Shown: in pieces, positions 48,997 to 59,892 of the stretch
Position numbering within the stretch: position 1 is the stretch's first letter
Layout: each line of letters starts with the position of its first letter
Origin: Desulfocarbo indianensis
GTDB lineage: Bacteria > Desulfobacterota > Desulfarculia > Desulfarculales > Desulfarculaceae
DNA length: 64,000 nt
NCBI GenBank assembly: GCA_001184205.1
Contig: LBMP01000003.1
Location: forward strand, 62,001-126,000
Direction of reading: 5' to 3'
The notes under the pieces: generated by a model
Told to the model about the DNA's origin: nothing
Seen by the model: the letters and a program-made list of their open reading frames with translations, nothing else
Databases searched by the model: none
Made by a program: the position numbers and the translations under genes

Positions 48997-51006
48997 ATGG
49001 ACCCCGTTGGCCATCTAGCCGAGTTTATAGAAAAAAATCGCATCACCCTTGCCATGGTGCAGACCGCGAAGAAGAGCCGCTGGGGCGTTCTCACCGCTTC
49101 CGACCGCCAGATGGCCCTGCCCGCCGGCCGGGTTCTGCATTTATCGCCGGCCGCCATATCGCCGGAGCGTCCCCGCCAGGCCCTGGCCGATTATTTAAAA
49201 GAAGTGGACACTCGCCGCGAAGAACTGGCCGCCCAGGTCAACGTGGCGGAGCTGTGGGAGCTGGTGCACGAGGAAAAAGACCTGGTCCCCCTCAAGGACC
49301 TGGCCGAGTTGCAGTTCGGGCCCGAGGCCGGCGACGATCACCAGGCGGCCGTGCTGCGGGCGCTGTTTTACGAGCGCCTGCATTTCCGCCTGGCCGGCGG
49401 CGACTACGTGCCCCTGACCCTGGAGCAACTGGAGCAAAAGCAGCTCCAGCAGGAACGCGAGGAAGCCCACCGCCAGGAGGTGGACGAGGCGGTGGAGTTC
49501 CTGCGCTCCCTGCCCAAATCCCGCACCGCCCTGCCCGCCGGCGAGCCGCCCGAGGGTTTGCTGGACCTGCTCACCGAGCTTCTGATTTTCGAGGATGACG
49601 CGCCGCGTGCCAAGAAGGCCAAGGAGATCGTCTCCCTGGCCGAGATCGGCGGCAGGCGGCAACTCTTCAAGCTGTTGGTGCGCCTGGGCGCCATGCCGCC
49701 GCACGCCAACGTGCCGCTGCTCAAGGAAGGCCTGTCCACCGAGTTCAGCCCCCAGATCGAGGAACTGGCGGAAAGTCTCTCCCCGGAGAGCGCCCTGCAA
49801 GAAGAACGCCGCGACCTGAGCGAACTGTACACCTTCACCATAGACGGCCTCTACACCACTGATTTCGACGACGCCCTTTCCTTTGAGCCGGATGATGAAG
49901 GCGGCGGCACCCTGGGCATCCACATCACCGACGCCGCGTCCCTGCTGGCGCCGGGCGACGCCTTGGACAGCGAGGCCATGGAGCGCGCCACCACCCTCTA
50001 CATGCCCGACGCGCGCATTCCCATGCTGCCGCCCCAGTTGAGCGAGGACGCGCTTTCCCTGCGCGAGGGCCTGCCGCGCCCCGGCATAAGCTGCCTGGCG
50101 CGGCTGGACGCCCAGGGCAAGGTGCTGGACTTTGAATTCATGCGCAGCGTCCTCAAGGTGCACAAGCGGCTGACCTATGACGAAGCCGATGAAATGCTGG
50201 AGGCGGGCGAGGCCAGGCTGAAAGGCCTGCTGGCCTGCTGCGACGCTTTGCGCCGCCAGCGCGGCCAGGCGGGGGCCTATTTCCTGCCGCTGCCCGAGGT
50301 GCTGGTGGGGGTGGATGAGGATTTCCAGGTGCGGGTGCGCCTCCTGGGGCGCGACGGCCCCAGCCGCGAGATGGTGGCCGAGACGGCCATCCTGGCCAAC
50401 ACCCTGGTGGGGCGCTTTCTGGACGAGCAAGGCGTGCCCAGCCTCTACCGCACCCAGGCCGAGCCCCGCGAACCCATCGAGGAAGGCGACCCCGAAGATC
50501 TCTTCCTCCATTTCAGGCAACGCCGCCTGTTGAATCCGGTGGATATCACCACCACCCCGGGCAAGCACTCCAGCCTGGGGGTGGAGCGCTACACCCACGC
50601 CACCAGCCCCATCCGCCGCTATTTGGACCTGGTGATGCAGCGCCAATTGTCCGCGGTGCTCTCCGGCCGGGGACCGGCCTACGGCAAGGAAGAATTGGAA
50701 GATTTGGCCATGCGGGTGCAGCCCAACGTGCGGCGGGCCATGCGCGTGCGCCAGTCCCGGCAGCGCTATTGGCTGCTGAAGTGGCTGGACGAGCGCAAGG
50801 ACGAGAAGCATCCGGCCCTGGTCATGGAGTATCAGACCCGGCGCTGGCAGCTTTTGCTCAATGAACTGATGCTTATCACCGCCATCCCCAACCAGCCGGG
50901 CCTGAGCCTGGAGCCGGGGCAAACGGTGTGGGTGAAAATCGAAAAGGCCGATCCCTTTTACGATCAGCTCCGGGTGAGCCTGGCCGATAATTACGAGCGC
51001 GATTAA
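48997..51006 (+). CDS. RNase II/R-family exoribonuclease (RNB domain)
   Basis: The protein has 669 residues. The catalytic RNB domain (about 275-600) has FTIDGLYTTDFDDALSFE with the Mg-binding Asp residues, LGIHITDAASLL, LYMPDARIPMLP, and RYTHATSPIRRYLDLVMQRQL. The N-terminal 250 residues are not typical cold-shock domains; they include a long helical Glu/Gln-rich part (EQKQLQQEREEAHRQEVDEA). No full C-terminal S1 motif is evident. This divergent RNase II subfamily is found in plastids, cyanobacteria and deltaproteobacteria. The ribosome site is weak. Its last four bases overlap the convergent PNPOx gene. Confidence 0.88.
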   Translation: MDPVGHLAEFIEKNRITLAMVQTAKKSRWGVLTASDRQMALPAGRVLHLSPAAISPERPRQALADYLKEVDTRREELAAQVNVAELWELVHEEKDLVPLKDLAELQFGPEAGDDHQAAVLRALFYERLHFRLAGGDYVPLTLEQLEQKQLQQEREEAHRQEVDEAVEFLRSLPKSRTALPAGEPPEGLLDLLTELLIFEDDAPRAKKAKEIVSLAEIGGRRQLFKLLVRLGAMPPHANVPLLKEGLSTEFSPQIEELAESLSPESALQEERRDLSELYTFTIDGLYTTDFDDALSFEPDDEGGGTLGIHITDAASLLAPGDALDSEAMERATTLYMPDARIPMLPPQLSEDALSLREGLPRPGISCLARLDAQGKVLDFEFMRSVLKVHKRLTYDEADEMLEAGEARLKGLLACCDALRRQRGQAGAYFLPLPEVLVGVDEDFQVRVRLLGRDGPSREMVAETAILANTLVGRFLDEQGVPSLYRTQAEPREPIEEGDPEDLFLHFRQRRLLNPVDITTTPGKHSSLGVERYTHATSPIRRYLDLVMQRQLSAVLSGRGPAYGKEELEDLAMRVQPNVRRAMRVRQSRQRYWLLKWLDERKDEKHPALVMEYQTRRWQLLLNELMLITAIPNQPGLSLEPGQTVWVKIEKADPFYDQLRVSLADNYERD

Positions 51007-51473
51007 AAGCCCGCGCGCCTTCCCGTCATCTCCTCTATGTCTATGCGCAAGATTGCCGTTCTGGCCAGGTTGGGCTCCGGAAAGTCATAGTCGCCCTTAC
51101 CCGCGTAGTGTTCCATTATGAGGCGCAGGCCCGATAGACGCTCCTCCGGATCGTCCACGATGACGGCCCGGCCAAAGCCCACCACGCTTTCATAGCGCAT
51201 GCCCCAGGCGCAAGCCTCCTTGCCTGGCATCACTTCGACGCCGGCCTCCGCCTCGAAACAAACCCGGTCATTGGCGGCCAGGAAATCCATCTTCAGGCCC
51301 TGGCGGCCGGTGTGGCAATAGATGCGCCCCGGCGCCAGGCCGAAGCTGAGCGGCACCACATAGGGCTGGCCGTCCTTGCACATGGCCAGGCGCAGCACCA
51401 GGGCCTTGGCCAGGATGGCCTCCATGGCCTCATGACCGCTCACCAGGGCCTTTTGTTTCCTCATGGGGCGCAT
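51003..51473 (-). CDS. Pyridoxamine 5-phosphate oxidase-fold (NimA-like) protein
   Basis: The protein has 156 residues. The split-barrel flavin fold is indicated by LVLRLAMCKDGQPYVVPLSFGL, IYCHTGRQGLKMDFLAAND, RVCFEAEAGVEVMPG, and YESVVGFGRAVIVDDPEER. Such proteins bind FMN or other cofactors; NimA-type reductases act on nitroimidazoles. Two starts are possible: 51473 with GGAGGA close upstream, and 51464, which overlaps the glycosyltransferase stop in ATGA. I use the first. It is translationally coupled to that gene. Confidence 0.8.
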   Translation of the reverse strand: MRPMRKQKALVSGHEAMEAILAKALVLRLAMCKDGQPYVVPLSFGLAPGRIYCHTGRQGLKMDFLAANDRVCFEAEAGVEVMPGKEACAWGMRYESVVGFGRAVIVDDPEERLSGLRLIMEHYAGKGDYDFPEPNLARTAILRIDIEEMTGRRAGF

Positions 51474-52597
51474 AGCTCCTCCAATGCCCTGCGCCAGGCC
51501 GGCGCCAGGGCTTGCCAGGTCATGGGGCGGGCCAGGGCTTGGTAATCGGTTCGCCGGCACTTATCCGGCGCGGCGATCAAGCCGGCCAAGGCCTGCTCCA
51601 GCTTGCCCGGCCCGTAGCGCAGCCCGGCGGGATAAAGCTCCGGGTAGACCAGTGCGTCCGGCACCAAGGGGCGGCAGCCGGCCCAGGCCGCCTCGGCCAC
51701 GGCCAGGCCCTGGTATTCCTGCAAGGCTGTGCTGACGCACATATCCGCCCAGAAAAGCCAGCGCCAATACTCGCGGCGGTCTTCCAGCGCCCCTTGCCGG
51801 ATCAGGCGTGGCCCCAGCTTGGAGGCCGCTTCCTGAAACACCGCGGGCGGGCGGCCGCTCTGGCGGCCCAACACCGCCACCTGGAAATCCAGCCCCTGCT
51901 CGGCCAGGGCGAACAGCGCCGCGAAAAAGCTCCGCGGGTCCTTGTCCTGGGACCAGCGGTGGTTCCAGAGAATCCTGAGCGGCCCCTGGCGCGGCTCGCG
52001 CCGCAGGCCGTTTGCCTCCTCAACCGATAGCGGCACGGCCAGCGCCCGGCTTTTGGCGCTCAGGGCCTGGGCCAGGCCATGGGGCACCGCGTCGGGCAGC
52101 TTGGCCAGGAGCGCTCCGGCGGCCTGGATCACCTCCCTGCGGTGATAGGCCGAATTAAATAGCGCCAGCTTGGCCGCGGCAACGCTGGTGAGATTGCTGA
52201 AGGCCAGGAACAGATCCTGCCGCTCTTGGCGCTCATCGGCCGCGCCCCCGGCCGGATAGGCGAGCTGGTTCTCGTGAAAATAAACCAAGGCCGGCGTGCC
52301 GGCCAACTCGGGTACCAGCCCCTTGAGCTCGGCCAGGTTCAGCATAGATGAACATATGAGGCCGTCCCAGGGCCGCCGCAGCGCCTCGCCCGCCGCCTCC
52401 GCCAGAAAGGCCGCCGCCCCGCGCATGCGCCAGCGGAAGAAACGCCCCGGCAAGGCCAGCAGGGTCCAGCGTCCGGGCAGGCGGCTCATGAGCGCCTCGG
52501 CCAGGGCGCGGTGCGATCCATTGAGGTAGGGCTCGATGAAAAGCAGGCGCGGCCCGCGCTCGCCCCGCTCTTTTATGATCAAGTTCCCGTTGGCCAT
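51461..52597 (-). CDS. DUF3524/QTMAN-like glycosyltransferase
   Basis: The protein has 378 residues. LLFIEPYLNGSHRALAEAL at the start, DGLICSSMLNLAELKGL, YFHENQLAYP and LFNSAYHRREVI are characteristic of the DUF3524 family. Residues 200-370 form a GT-B C-terminal half with ILWNHRWSQDKDP, VAVLGRQSG and EYQGLAVAEAAWAGCRPLVP, the nucleotide-sugar site. The vertebrate member GTDC1 (QTMAN) mannosylates queuosine in tRNA-Asp, so a queuosine-modifying role is plausible; no queuosine genes are in the window. The ATG at 52597 (MANGN) is preferred over the TTG at 52615. It overlaps the PNPOx gene downstream. Confidence 0.8.
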   Translation of the reverse strand: MANGNLIIKERGERGPRLLFIEPYLNGSHRALAEALMSRLPGRWTLLALPGRFFRWRMRGAAAFLAEAAGEALRRPWDGLICSSMLNLAELKGLVPELAGTPALVYFHENQLAYPAGGAADERQERQDLFLAFSNLTSVAAAKLALFNSAYHRREVIQAAGALLAKLPDAVPHGLAQALSAKSRALAVPLSVEEANGLRREPRQGPLRILWNHRWSQDKDPRSFFAALFALAEQGLDFQVAVLGRQSGRPPAVFQEAASKLGPRLIRQGALEDRREYWRWLFWADMCVSTALQEYQGLAVAEAAWAGCRPLVPDALVYPELYPAGLRYGPGKLEQALAGLIAAPDKCRRTDYQALARPMTWQALAPAWRRALEELCAP

Positions 52598-52717
52598 GGA
52601 AAGCTCTCGCCGCAACGAAGCTCACCCAAAGGGGTGATGGTGATTAGGGGTGCGGTCTGCTAACGTGAAGGCCGTGCCTTTCTCTAAACCCGCGAACCCA
52701 TGCAGGAGATTTTTATC

Positions 52718-53062
52718 ATGATCGCCAGCCCCACGGAATACCGAAAAGCCAGCATGCAGGCCTTTATGCTGTACAAGGAGAAAATGCCCGAAGTGGGCCG
52801 GAACTACGACGCCCTGCCCGGCGAGGTCTACAAGGACGGCGCTTTAAGCGGCAAGGTGAAAAGACTCATGGCCCTGTGCGGCGCGCTGGTGCACGGCTGC
52901 CCCGCCTGCCAGATGGCCCAGACCGAGCGGGCCCTGGAGCTGGGCGCCACCGTGGACGAGGTGCTGGAGGCCTGCGCCGTGGCCATAAGCCTGGGCGGCA
53001 CCATGGGCGCGGGCGAGACCACCAACGTGGTGCGCTTTCTCCAAGAAAAAGGCCTGCTATAA
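52718..53062 (+). CDS. AhpD-like / carboxymuconolactone decarboxylase-family protein
   Basis: The protein has 114 residues, all helical. LSGKVKRLMALCGALVHGCPACQMAQTERALELG contains the CxxC of AhpD-type proteins, although the His normally three residues after the second Cys is Gln here. VDEVLEACAVAISLGG follows. Members act in peroxide defence or are of unknown function. The ATG at 52718 is chosen because AGGAGA lies about nine bases upstream; an ATG at 52700 is weaker. The gene stands alone between divergent and convergent neighbours. Confidence 0.85.
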   Translation: MIASPTEYRKASMQAFMLYKEKMPEVGRNYDALPGEVYKDGALSGKVKRLMALCGALVHGCPACQMAQTERALELGATVDEVLEACAVAISLGGTMGAGETTNVVRFLQEKGLL

Positions 53063-53103: not shown

Positions 53104-53907
53104 TTAGCGGATGACGCTGCGGCCGGGGTGGAAGCCCGGCTTCACCGCCATGCAAGGGGCCACCAGGCATTTGGGACCCAGGATGGTGCCGGGGTTGGTC
53201 ACCGAGTTGCACCCGGTTTCGCAGCCGTCGCCCAGGATGGCTCCGAACTTGCGCCTTTTTATGGTGTGGGTCTTGTCGCCCAGCTTGATGTAATAAGGCC
53301 GGTCGATGATCTTGAGGTTGGCCAGCTTGGTGCCCGCGCCCAGGTTGACCTCGCGGCCCAGGATGGAATCTCCCAAATAGGCGAAGTGGCCGGCTTTGGC
53401 CCCGTCCAGCATGACGCTGTTCTTCATCTCGGTGGTGTGCCCCACCACGCAGGCCCGCCCCACCAGGCAGGAGCCGCGCAGGTATGCGCCCTGGCGCACC
53501 TCGGAGCCGGCGCCTATGAAGGTGGGACCCTTGATGAGGGCGCCGGGCTCCACCTTGCAGCCCGGAGAAAAATGCACGGCGTCGTCCATGATGGCCGCGC
53601 CGGCGTGAATCACCGCCGCCTCGCTCACCACCTCGCCCTCGAGGCGCACCTTCATTTCGCCCTTGGTGGGATCGCCGCCCAAAAGCTCGAAGCCGGATTC
53701 CCGCACCTTGCCCTGGTGGATCACCACCGTGTTGAGGAGCACGTCCCCGCCGCGACGCAGGATCGCCCCCTGGGGGCCGGCCTGCTCGATGGCGTTCACG
53801 GTGTATTCCTTGATCTGGTCCAGCACTTCCCACACCAGCTTTACGCCGGCGAAAAGAAACGCGTCGCTCAAGTCATCTAGATTGAACAGCCCGCCGGGAG
53901 AAAGCAT
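53104..53907 (-). CDS. Left-handed beta-helix (hexapeptide repeat) acyl/nucleotidyl-transferase-like protein
   Basis: The 267 residues carry many hexapeptide repeats between about residues 95 and 255, such as AVIHAGAAIMDDAVHFSPG, GALIKGPTFIGAGSEVRQGA, GREVNLGAGTKLANL, GDGCETGCNSVTNPGTILG. The N-terminal 90 residues replace the nucleotidyltransferase domain of GlmU-like enzymes. It resembles the C-terminal acetyltransferase half of UDP-GlcNAc or glucose-1-phosphate enzymes. The substrate is unknown. HisF lies 51 bases upstream (leftward order hisH, hisF, ... ), but hisF is read in the same direction and ends before this gene begins, so they may share a transcript. Confidence 0.75.
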   Translation of the reverse strand: MLSPGGLFNLDDLSDAFLFAGVKLVWEVLDQIKEYTVNAIEQAGPQGAILRRGGDVLLNTVVIHQGKVRESGFELLGGDPTKGEMKVRLEGEVVSEAAVIHAGAAIMDDAVHFSPGCKVEPGALIKGPTFIGAGSEVRQGAYLRGSCLVGRACVVGHTTEMKNSVMLDGAKAGHFAYLGDSILGREVNLGAGTKLANLKIIDRPYYIKLGDKTHTIKRRKFGAILGDGCETGCNSVTNPGTILGPKCLVAPCMAVKPGFHPGRSVIR

Positions 53908-57972: not shown

Positions 57973-59892
57973 CTATCTGATTACGCCGGCTTCGACGCTC
58001 TGGCTCTCTTTGGCCAGGCGGTGCAAATGCAGGGAAAGCACGGCCAGCGCCGCCGGCGTCACGCCGGAGATGCGCCCGGCCTGGCCAAGATTGGCCGGCC
58101 GCACCTTGATCAGCTTCTCCCTGACCTCCCGGCTCAGGCCGGCCAGGGATTCGTAGTCCAAGTCCCGGGGAATCCGCACCTGCTCCCTCTGGCGGAAGCG
58201 CGCCACCTGCTCGCGCTCCCTTTCCTCATAGCCCACATAATGGGCGCGTATCTCCAGTTGCTCGGCCACCTCGCCGCCAAGGCCGTCCAGGGAGGCCAGG
58301 TCCGGATGCAGGCCCAACAGGTTCTTCAAAACCATGCCGGGACGCCGCAGCAGCTCGGCCGCGCTCAAAGGGCGCTTAAGGGGCGCGCTGCCCAGAGCGG
58401 CCAGGCCGTCGTTGAGCGAGGCGGTGGGGTTGAGGCGCACCTCGCTTAAAAGCCGCCAGGCGTCCTCGATGGCTTGGCGCTTCCGGCCGAAGACCGCCCA
58501 GCGCCGGTCATCCACCAGGCCCAGCTCGCGGCCCAGGGCCGTGAGCCGCAAATCAGCGTTGTCCTCGCGCAGGCTCAGGCGGTATTCGGCCCGTGATGTG
58601 AACATCCGGTAGGGCTCCAGGGTGCCCCTGGTCACCAGATCATCCACGAGCACCCCGATATAGGCTTGGGAACGGTCCAGCGCCAGGGGCTCCTCGCCGC
58701 GCACCCAGCGCACCGCGCCGATGGCGGCCATGAGCCCTTGGGCCGCGGCTTCCTCGTAGCCGCTGGTGCCGTTTATCTGGCCGGCCAGGAACAGGCCCGC
58801 CAGTTTGCGGCTCATGAGATCGGGCCCCAGGTCCTGGGGGTCGCTCATGTCGTATTCAATGGCGTAGCCCGGCCGGGCGATGAAAGCCTGCTCGCAGCCG
58901 GGCAGGCTGCGCACCATGAGTTCCTGCACGTGCAGAGGCAGGCTGGTGGGGATGCCGTTGGGGTAGATCAGCCCGTTTTCCAGTCCCTGGGGCTCCAGGA
59001 AAACCTGGTGGGATTCCTTGTCAGCAAAGCGCACCACCTTGTCCTCGATGGAGGGGCAATAGCGCGCGCCGGTGCCGGTGATGCGTCCCGCGTACATGGG
59101 CGCCTGGTCCAGGTTGGCCCGGATCAGTTCGTGGGTGGCGGCGGTGGTGCGGGTCACCCAGCAGCAGACCTGGGGCAGTTGGGGCGGGAACCGGCTCAAG
59201 AAGCTGAAGGCCCTGGGCTGGGCGTCGCCCCATTGCCGGGGAAGCCGGGATAAATCCAGGGAGCGGCGGTCCAGGCGCGGCGTGGTGCCGGTCTTGAGCC
59301 GCCGCAGGTTGAAGCCCAGTTCCTTGAGCTGGTCGCTCAGGGCGTTGGAGGGCGGATCGCCCATGCGGCCGGCCTGATACTGGCTAAGGCCGATGTGGAT
59401 CACCCCGCGCAGGAAGGTGCCCGTGGTCAGCAGCACCGCCTTGGCCGCGATTTCCTGGCCGCGCTGGGTCACCACGCCGGCGGCGCGGCCGTCCTTTACC
59501 ATCAATGAGCGCGCCTCGGCCTCCAGGAGCCACAAGCCCTCCTGCTCCTGGCAGACCCGGCGCATGCGGCGGGGGTAGAGGTCCATGTCCACCTGGGCCC
59601 GGCTGGACCAGACCGCGGGCCCCTTGCCCTGGTTCAGAAGGCGGAACTGAATGCCGGTCCGGTCGGCGTTCAAGGCCATCTCGCCGCCCAGGGCGTCTAT
59701 CTCCCGCACCAGATGGCCCTTGGCCAGGCCGCCCACGGCGGGGTTGCAGGAGAGCGCGGCCAAGTGATCCAGGTTGAAGGTGACCAGGCAGACCCGCGCC
59801 CCCAGGCGGGCGGCGGCCAAGGCGGCCTCGCAGCCGGCGTGACCCGCCCCCACCACGATCAAATCGAAAACCTCGGGCGCTTGCATGGGCAC
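57973..59892 (-). CDS. mnmG: tRNA uridine-5-carboxymethylaminomethyl modification enzyme MnmG
   Basis: The 639 residues match MnmG (GidA), which with MnmE modifies wobble uridine in several tRNAs using FAD. The FAD turn is VVGAGHAGCEAALAAARLG. SCNPAVGGLAKGHLVREIDALGG and GKGPAVWSSRAQVD follow, and YCPSIEDKVVRFADKESHQVF, ARPGYAIEYD, GLFLAGQINGTSGYEEAAAQG and FTSRAEYRLSLREDNADLRL are family signatures. The C-terminal half has YVGYEEREREQVARF. The start is GTG (59892) after GGAG, or ATG two codons later. The flavin reductase lies 15 bases upstream, so a shared operon is likely. Confidence 0.97.
   Translation of the reverse strand: MPMQAPEVFDLIVVGAGHAGCEAALAAARLGARVCLVTFNLDHLAALSCNPAVGGLAKGHLVREIDALGGEMALNADRTGIQFRLLNQGKGPAVWSSRAQVDMDLYPRRMRRVCQEQEGLWLLEAEARSLMVKDGRAAGVVTQRGQEIAAKAVLLTTGTFLRGVIHIGLSQYQAGRMGDPPSNALSDQLKELGFNLRRLKTGTTPRLDRRSLDLSRLPRQWGDAQPRAFSFLSRFPPQLPQVCCWVTRTTAATHELIRANLDQAPMYAGRITGTGARYCPSIEDKVVRFADKESHQVFLEPQGLENGLIYPNGIPTSLPLHVQELMVRSLPGCEQAFIARPGYAIEYDMSDPQDLGPDLMSRKLAGLFLAGQINGTSGYEEAAAQGLMAAIGAVRWVRGEEPLALDRSQAYIGVLVDDLVTRGTLEPYRMFTSRAEYRLSLREDNADLRLTALGRELGLVDDRRWAVFGRKRQAIEDAWRLLSEVRLNPTASLNDGLAALGSAPLKRPLSAAELLRRPGMVLKNLLGLHPDLASLDGLGGEVAEQLEIRAHYVGYEEREREQVARFRQREQVRIPRDLDYESLAGLSREVREKLIKVRPANLGQAGRISGVTPAALAVLSLHLHRLAKESQSVEAGVIR

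Follow-up and report, generated by a model that had tools for sequence, protein, structure and literature searches.

A probable tRNA-queuosine glycosyltransferase of the QTMAN family encoded in the genome of Desulfocarbo indianensis

In many bacteria, GluQ-RS acts on queuosine (Q) at position 34 (Q34) of tRNA-Asp, and in animals QTMAN (GTDC1), described by Zhao et al. in Cell in 2023, is reportedly a tRNA-queuosine α-mannosyltransferase. Excerpts of another article describe animal QTMAN as an enzyme of tRNA-Asp whose α-mannose goes onto the allylic hydroxyl of Q (PMC12518689). The same excerpts list QTGAL (B3GNTL1), the Q-tRNA galactosyltransferase, which also glycosylates queuosine in tRNA; by its description, it is a separate enzyme that attaches β-galactose to the other hydroxyl and is set apart from QTMAN. 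Passages of a 2024 review assign galQ and manQ to vertebrates and gluQ only to bacteria, and they describe GluQ-RS as a bacterial enzyme through which tRNA queuosine gains a further group (PMC12710937). GluQ-RS (YadB, TIGR03838), the bacterial glutamyl-queuosine tRNA-Asp synthetase, resembles the role proposed below in modifying tRNA queuosine in bacteria, but it is a small relative of glutamyl-tRNA synthetase and not a glycosyltransferase. The excerpted text of a lectin study describes glycosylated RNA in E. coli (PMC12873605), which is a different matter because our control E. coli genome has no PF12038 match. Among the papers listed by our literature search, judged by titles, the first lines of abstracts, and selected passages, none described manQ or a QTMAN activity for a bacterium.

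In this study, we analyzed a gene of this family in a 64,000-nucleotide stretch of the D. indianensis genome, hereafter the window (assembly GCA_001184205.1, contig LBMP01000003.1, positions 62,001 to 126,000). The gene belongs to a known family, since Pfam already names it after the animal enzyme, and by sequence comparison and structure prediction it is probably a tRNA-queuosine glycosyltransferase. The likeness to animal QTMAN, known via the Pfam profile, consists of the same full-length N-terminal domain, and queuosine genes are present in the host cell. Unlike the host of animal QTMAN, the host here is a bacterium that, judged by its genes, makes queuosine itself.

Domain composition and predicted fold

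The glycosyltransferase gene and its two halves are as follows.

51461..52597, minus strand: QTMAN-family (PF12038) GT-B glycosyltransferase gene, 378 aa from ATG 52597
52028..52546, minus strand: QTMAN_N domain (residues 24–196 of the 384-aa reading) with the GSH and HENQ-x-x-YP motifs; profile match, coordinates counted from TTG 52615
51464..51979, minus strand: GT4-type donor half with W-N-H-R-W-x-x-D-K and the QEYQGLAVAE segment (E300, E308); alignment and profile matches

The open reading frame (51461-52615, minus strand) extends up to TTG 52615, and in that reading the product has 384 residues. ATG 52597 appears to be the better start, judged by the starts of relatives, and the 378-aa product that the earlier note had assumed agrees better with these sites. 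QTMAN_N, which we take to be the former DUF3524, matches residues 24–196 (384-aa numbering) over model positions 2–168 of 168 (E = 1e-49); a score of 169.1 bits against a cut-off of 25 places this match far beyond chance. A whole-genome search found a single copy of PF12038 in the host assembly (5.1 Mb, 333 contigs, 98.65% complete), and none of the NCBIfam profiles matched the glycosyltransferase at E 0.001.

The DUF3524 motifs that had been read from the sequence, IEPYLNGSH and YFHENQLAYP, are present and located at the most conserved columns of the family (S34 and H35; H114, E115, N116, and Q117; Y120 and P121). An alignment of 75 sequences, the window protein plus 74 relatives taken from named records, has 16 invariant columns: R63, H114-Q117, P121, W217, R220, W221, D224, K225, P227, G250, G275, Y283, and G303. 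We presume, by comparison with GT4 enzymes, that residues such as E300 and E308 have a catalytic role.

A GT-B donor site had also been proposed, and it is borne out by profile matches to the C-terminal halves of GT4 enzymes and by the predicted fold. An AlphaFold model computed with the alignment of relatives as input (pLDDT 92.3, pTM 0.90) predicts a complete GT-B fold with a GT4-type C-terminal donor half. All of the top 50 PDB matches listed by VIA-align 2 are GT-B proteins (Z 23.5–32.1, 288–334 residues, region 19–384), and the best of them reaches Z 32.1 with an rmsd of 2.5 over 332 aligned residues (residues 21–384). The GT4 mannosyltransferases PimA and PimB′, whose acceptors are lipids, share the GT-B fold with the window protein at Z about 25: PimA with GDP-mannose aligns over 316 residues (Z 24.9, rmsd 3.7) and PimB′ over 326 residues (Z 25.3, rmsd 3.6). 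The donor half also aligns to PimA by profile, whereas sequence identity to the two enzymes is 16%. In the profile search against solved structures, low E-values were reached by the donor half only, and no solved QTMAN structure was found by phmmer, by profile, or among the fold matches listed. GT4 enzymes are retaining, which fits an α-mannoside product. Since GT4 folds serve many acceptors, the acceptor cannot be named from the fold alone.

Gene neighborhood

The genes around QTMAN in the window include the following.

51003..51473, minus strand: PNPOx-fold gene (Pyridox_ox_2, weakly Nim-like), sharing bases with the 3′ end of QTMAN; an accessory gene; profile match E 3.6e-24
48997-51006, plus strand: RNB-domain exoribonuclease gene, a convergent neighbor of QTMAN that is also conserved among relatives; its scores fall far short of the equivalog cut-offs for RNase R and RNase II
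52700-53062, plus strand: carboxymuconolactone-decarboxylase (CMD)/AhpD-like gene between the hexapeptide gene and QTMAN; profile match
53104..53907, minus strand: hexapeptide-repeat (GlmU C-terminal-like) gene, adjoining QTMAN upstream in relatives; profile match and relatives' loci
57973..59892, minus strand: mnmG (tRNA wobble-uridine-34 modification), in the same conserved run, 5.4 kb upstream of QTMAN

The earlier note had coupled QTMAN to the PNPOx-fold gene through an overlap. The open reading frame list starts this gene at GTG 51560; a start at GGAGGAGCTATG with ATG at 51473 is likelier and gives an overlap of about 13 bases. The protein has weak matches to models of Nim nitroimidazole reductases, well below their cut-offs. 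While the gene and its overlap are real, it follows QTMAN in five of nine relatives and was not found in the other four, so the coupling says little about function, and we rejected PNPOx as a functional partner.

In nine relatives, hisH, hisF, the hexapeptide gene, and QTMAN form a conserved run with the convergent RNB-domain gene behind it. mnmG is part of the run in eight of these relatives (Desulfarculaceae), and the contig of the ninth stops short of the mnmG site. Because the hexapeptide gene and QTMAN are adjacent in all nine, the CMD gene looks like an insertion in the lineage of the window. In the phylum sample, QTMAN has the same neighbors in seven genomes that belong to the window's family. 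Two ABC exporter genes near QTMAN in the window resemble MsbA and SmdAB, with scores below the cut-offs.

Tgt, QueA, QueG, and QueH were not found in the window, in line with the earlier statement that no queuosine genes are nearby, but mnmG, another gene for wobble-34 modification of tRNA, does lie on the same strand. Elsewhere, we examined 140 other QTMAN loci, some of which share a genome; none contained Tgt, and a single one (L099) had QueA, at a distance of about 7 kb. When the neighbors in 80 loci were clustered and 67 same-strand neighbors were scanned with Pfam (the first 25 of 79 families listed), no conserved operon with queuosine genes emerged, and thiI was the sole recurrent tRNA gene. 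thiI acts on U8 and mnmG on U34. In one actinobacterial clade, 11 of 13 rows, among which two pairs of proteins are identical, show thiI immediately before QTMAN; in the remaining rows, L053 gave no match to thiI, and L074 starts at the QTMAN gene. On a KSB1 contig (L095:5341-9107), thiI and QTMAN share a strand, thiI coming first by about 1.5 kb, and a gene of the opposite strand separates them, making this a second lineage with thiI nearby.

Queuosine genes and the proposed substrate

According to the earlier note, the queuosine reading would not hold in a host that lacks queuosine synthesis genes. The genome-wide search found Tgt (C268:129492-130562, E = 5.8e-152), QueA (E = 2.1e-100), and QueH (C1:1004692-1005195, E = 1.5e-57); hence such genes are not lacking. 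QueH takes the place of QueG in some bacteria. QueG gave only partial ferredoxin-like matches and none over the cut-off in the host genome; we rejected it as the last step of Q synthesis there, and QueH is present instead.

PF12038 is carried by 42 of 296 genomes in the window's phylum, by 19 of 316 in an Actinobacteria sample (the phylum to which G312 belongs, a genome with a record labeled "Actinobacteria bacterium"), and by 11 of 187 Gammaproteobacteria (the class of G315, a Neptunomonas genome), and there was no match in 14 control genomes, including E. coli. In the window's phylum, all 42 QTMAN-positive genomes have Tgt (one as a fragment), and 38 have QueH, with over-cut-off QueG in two of the other four; G192 and G247 have no QueA, and G182 and G247 have neither QueH nor over-cut-off QueG. 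QueA is present in 40 of the 42 genomes with QTMAN and in 250 of the 254 without it (p = 0.20). As it is near universal there (290/296), co-occurrence within this phylum is uninformative, and the test was discarded.

The QTMAN family tracks queuosine genes in Actinobacteria. When related genomes are treated as independent, all 19 QTMAN-positive genomes have Tgt against 34 of 61 QTMAN-negative genomes (one-sided Fisher p = 1e-4), and all 19 have over-cut-off QueA against 25 of 57 (one-sided Fisher p = 4e-6), or against 36 of 57 when all QueA matches at E 0.001 are counted (p = 7e-4). The QTMAN-negative sample comprised the first 61 of 297 genomes, ordered by handle, for Tgt and the first 57 of the same 61 for QueA. 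The actinobacterial label needs four changes on the family tree, indicating that these carriers are not one clade. Across named lineages, Tgt is present in 42 of 46 QTMAN-positive genomes, a count drawn from 47 of the 80 named loci (the best 80 of at least 578). Among the four without Tgt, for which completeness is not stated, QueA is present in three; the fourth, G317, is a MAG of 1.8 Mb that lacks both genes.

We lean towards a GT4-type transfer of a hexose, most likely mannose, to tRNA queuosine at position 34 by the window protein. The enzyme would be a GT4-type, presumably retaining, glycosyltransferase; the hexose donor would most likely be GDP-mannose, and the acceptor would be one of the cyclopentenediol hydroxyls of Q34 in one or more tRNAs with a GUN anticodon. 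The earlier proposal of a QTMAN-like enzyme of queuosine tRNA is supported in part, namely as to family and predicted GT-B fold and by the queuosine genes in the host and the association in Actinobacteria, while we infer the acceptor (queuosine in tRNA), the sugar, the hydroxyl, and the tRNA.

The tRNA is the weakest part of the earlier reading, which had named tRNA-Asp. We expected QTMAN and GluQ-RS, the enzyme of tRNA-Asp Q34, to exclude each other, but saw no such exclusion: among Gammaproteobacteria, GluQ-RS occurs in 9 of the 11 genomes with QTMAN and in 106 of the 176 without it (p = 0.21; 115 of 116 over-cut-off genomes, leaving out G770, whose sole over-cut-off match lies in a 470-aa frame and is probably GltX). 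This coexistence makes tRNA-Asp doubtful as the sole substrate; either both enzymes use tRNA-Asp in one cell or the bacterial QTMAN acts on another GUN tRNA. Moreover, manQ was mapped to tRNA-Tyr in the mosquito Aedes, according to the excerpted text of PMC11705514, which gives m/z 572.22 for both manQ and galQ, so that even animals show no fixed choice of tRNA.

The same observations lend some weight to a reading that keeps the acceptor of our preferred explanation and differs in its details, namely, that Q-tRNA is glycosylated unlike in the animal case, with another sugar (glucose, galactose, or GlcNAc), at another hydroxyl, or only on a non-Asp tRNA (Tyr, His, or Asn). Both GDP-mannose and UDP-sugar enzymes appear among the fold matches, and within the top 50 listed, the GT4 enzymes that use UDP-sugars score equal to or above those that use GDP-mannose. 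However, the family is that of a mannosyltransferase, and coexistence with GluQ-RS could mean competition on one tRNA; we regard this reading as possible but not favored.

It seems unlikely to us that the protein is a common GT4 glycosyltransferase serving glycan, lipid, or small-molecule metabolism and that its link to queuosine genes is a phylogenetic coincidence. GT4 enzymes are diverse, the neighbors in the window include the GlmU-like hexapeptide protein and the two sub-cut-off MsbA- and SmdAB-like exporters, the association tests take related genomes as independent, and both Tgt and QueA are missing from one MAG that carries QTMAN. On the other hand, the actinobacterial association (19/19 against 34/61 for Tgt and 25/57 for QueA) extends across more than one clade, and two different tRNA-modification genes, thiI and mnmG, adjoin QTMAN in separate lineages. 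Least probable is an acceptor other than Q34 in tRNA, be it some different modified nucleoside of tRNA or queuine or queuosine in free form: the adjoining tRNA genes are indeed thiI and mnmG and not queuosine genes, but the Pfam family name refers to Q-tRNA, and both Tgt and QueA occur in all 19 actinobacterial carriers.

Distribution of the family and implications

The scan of species genomes yielded at least 578 relatives of the window protein. Among the best 80 of these, which form our named set, the records bear 11 NCBI phylum names, the named isolates include strains of Marinobacterium, Halomonas, and Neptunomonas, and a Desulfarculus sp. MAG holds the nearest relative that carries a genus name, at 60% identity. 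No QTMAN copies were found on the viral contigs, phages, and plasmids searched.

QTMAN activity in bacteria is a readily testable prediction. We see about even chances that glycosylated queuosine is widespread in bacteria, produced by homologs of animal QTMAN in a scatter of species from 11 or more phyla and occurring alongside glutamyl-queuosine in many gammaproteobacterial cells. If so, queuosine glycosylation in animals would be one branch of an older bacterial chemistry. If the bacterial QTMAN homologs glycosylate Q, the division between vertebrate manQ and galQ and bacterial gluQ would be wrong, and cultured single-celled models would become available in which the function of Q glycosylation could be tested by simple gene deletion; that function is termed unclear in the excerpts of PMC12518689.

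Two observations concern individual records. The QTMAN tree groups L049, whose title reads Aeromicrobium, as a pair with a record from Coriobacteriia, and the L049 label may be wrong. The actinobacterial genome G651 has two diverged QTMAN copies (L132 and L147), one of which contains an in-frame TGA; the two might have different tRNA targets, or one may have decayed.
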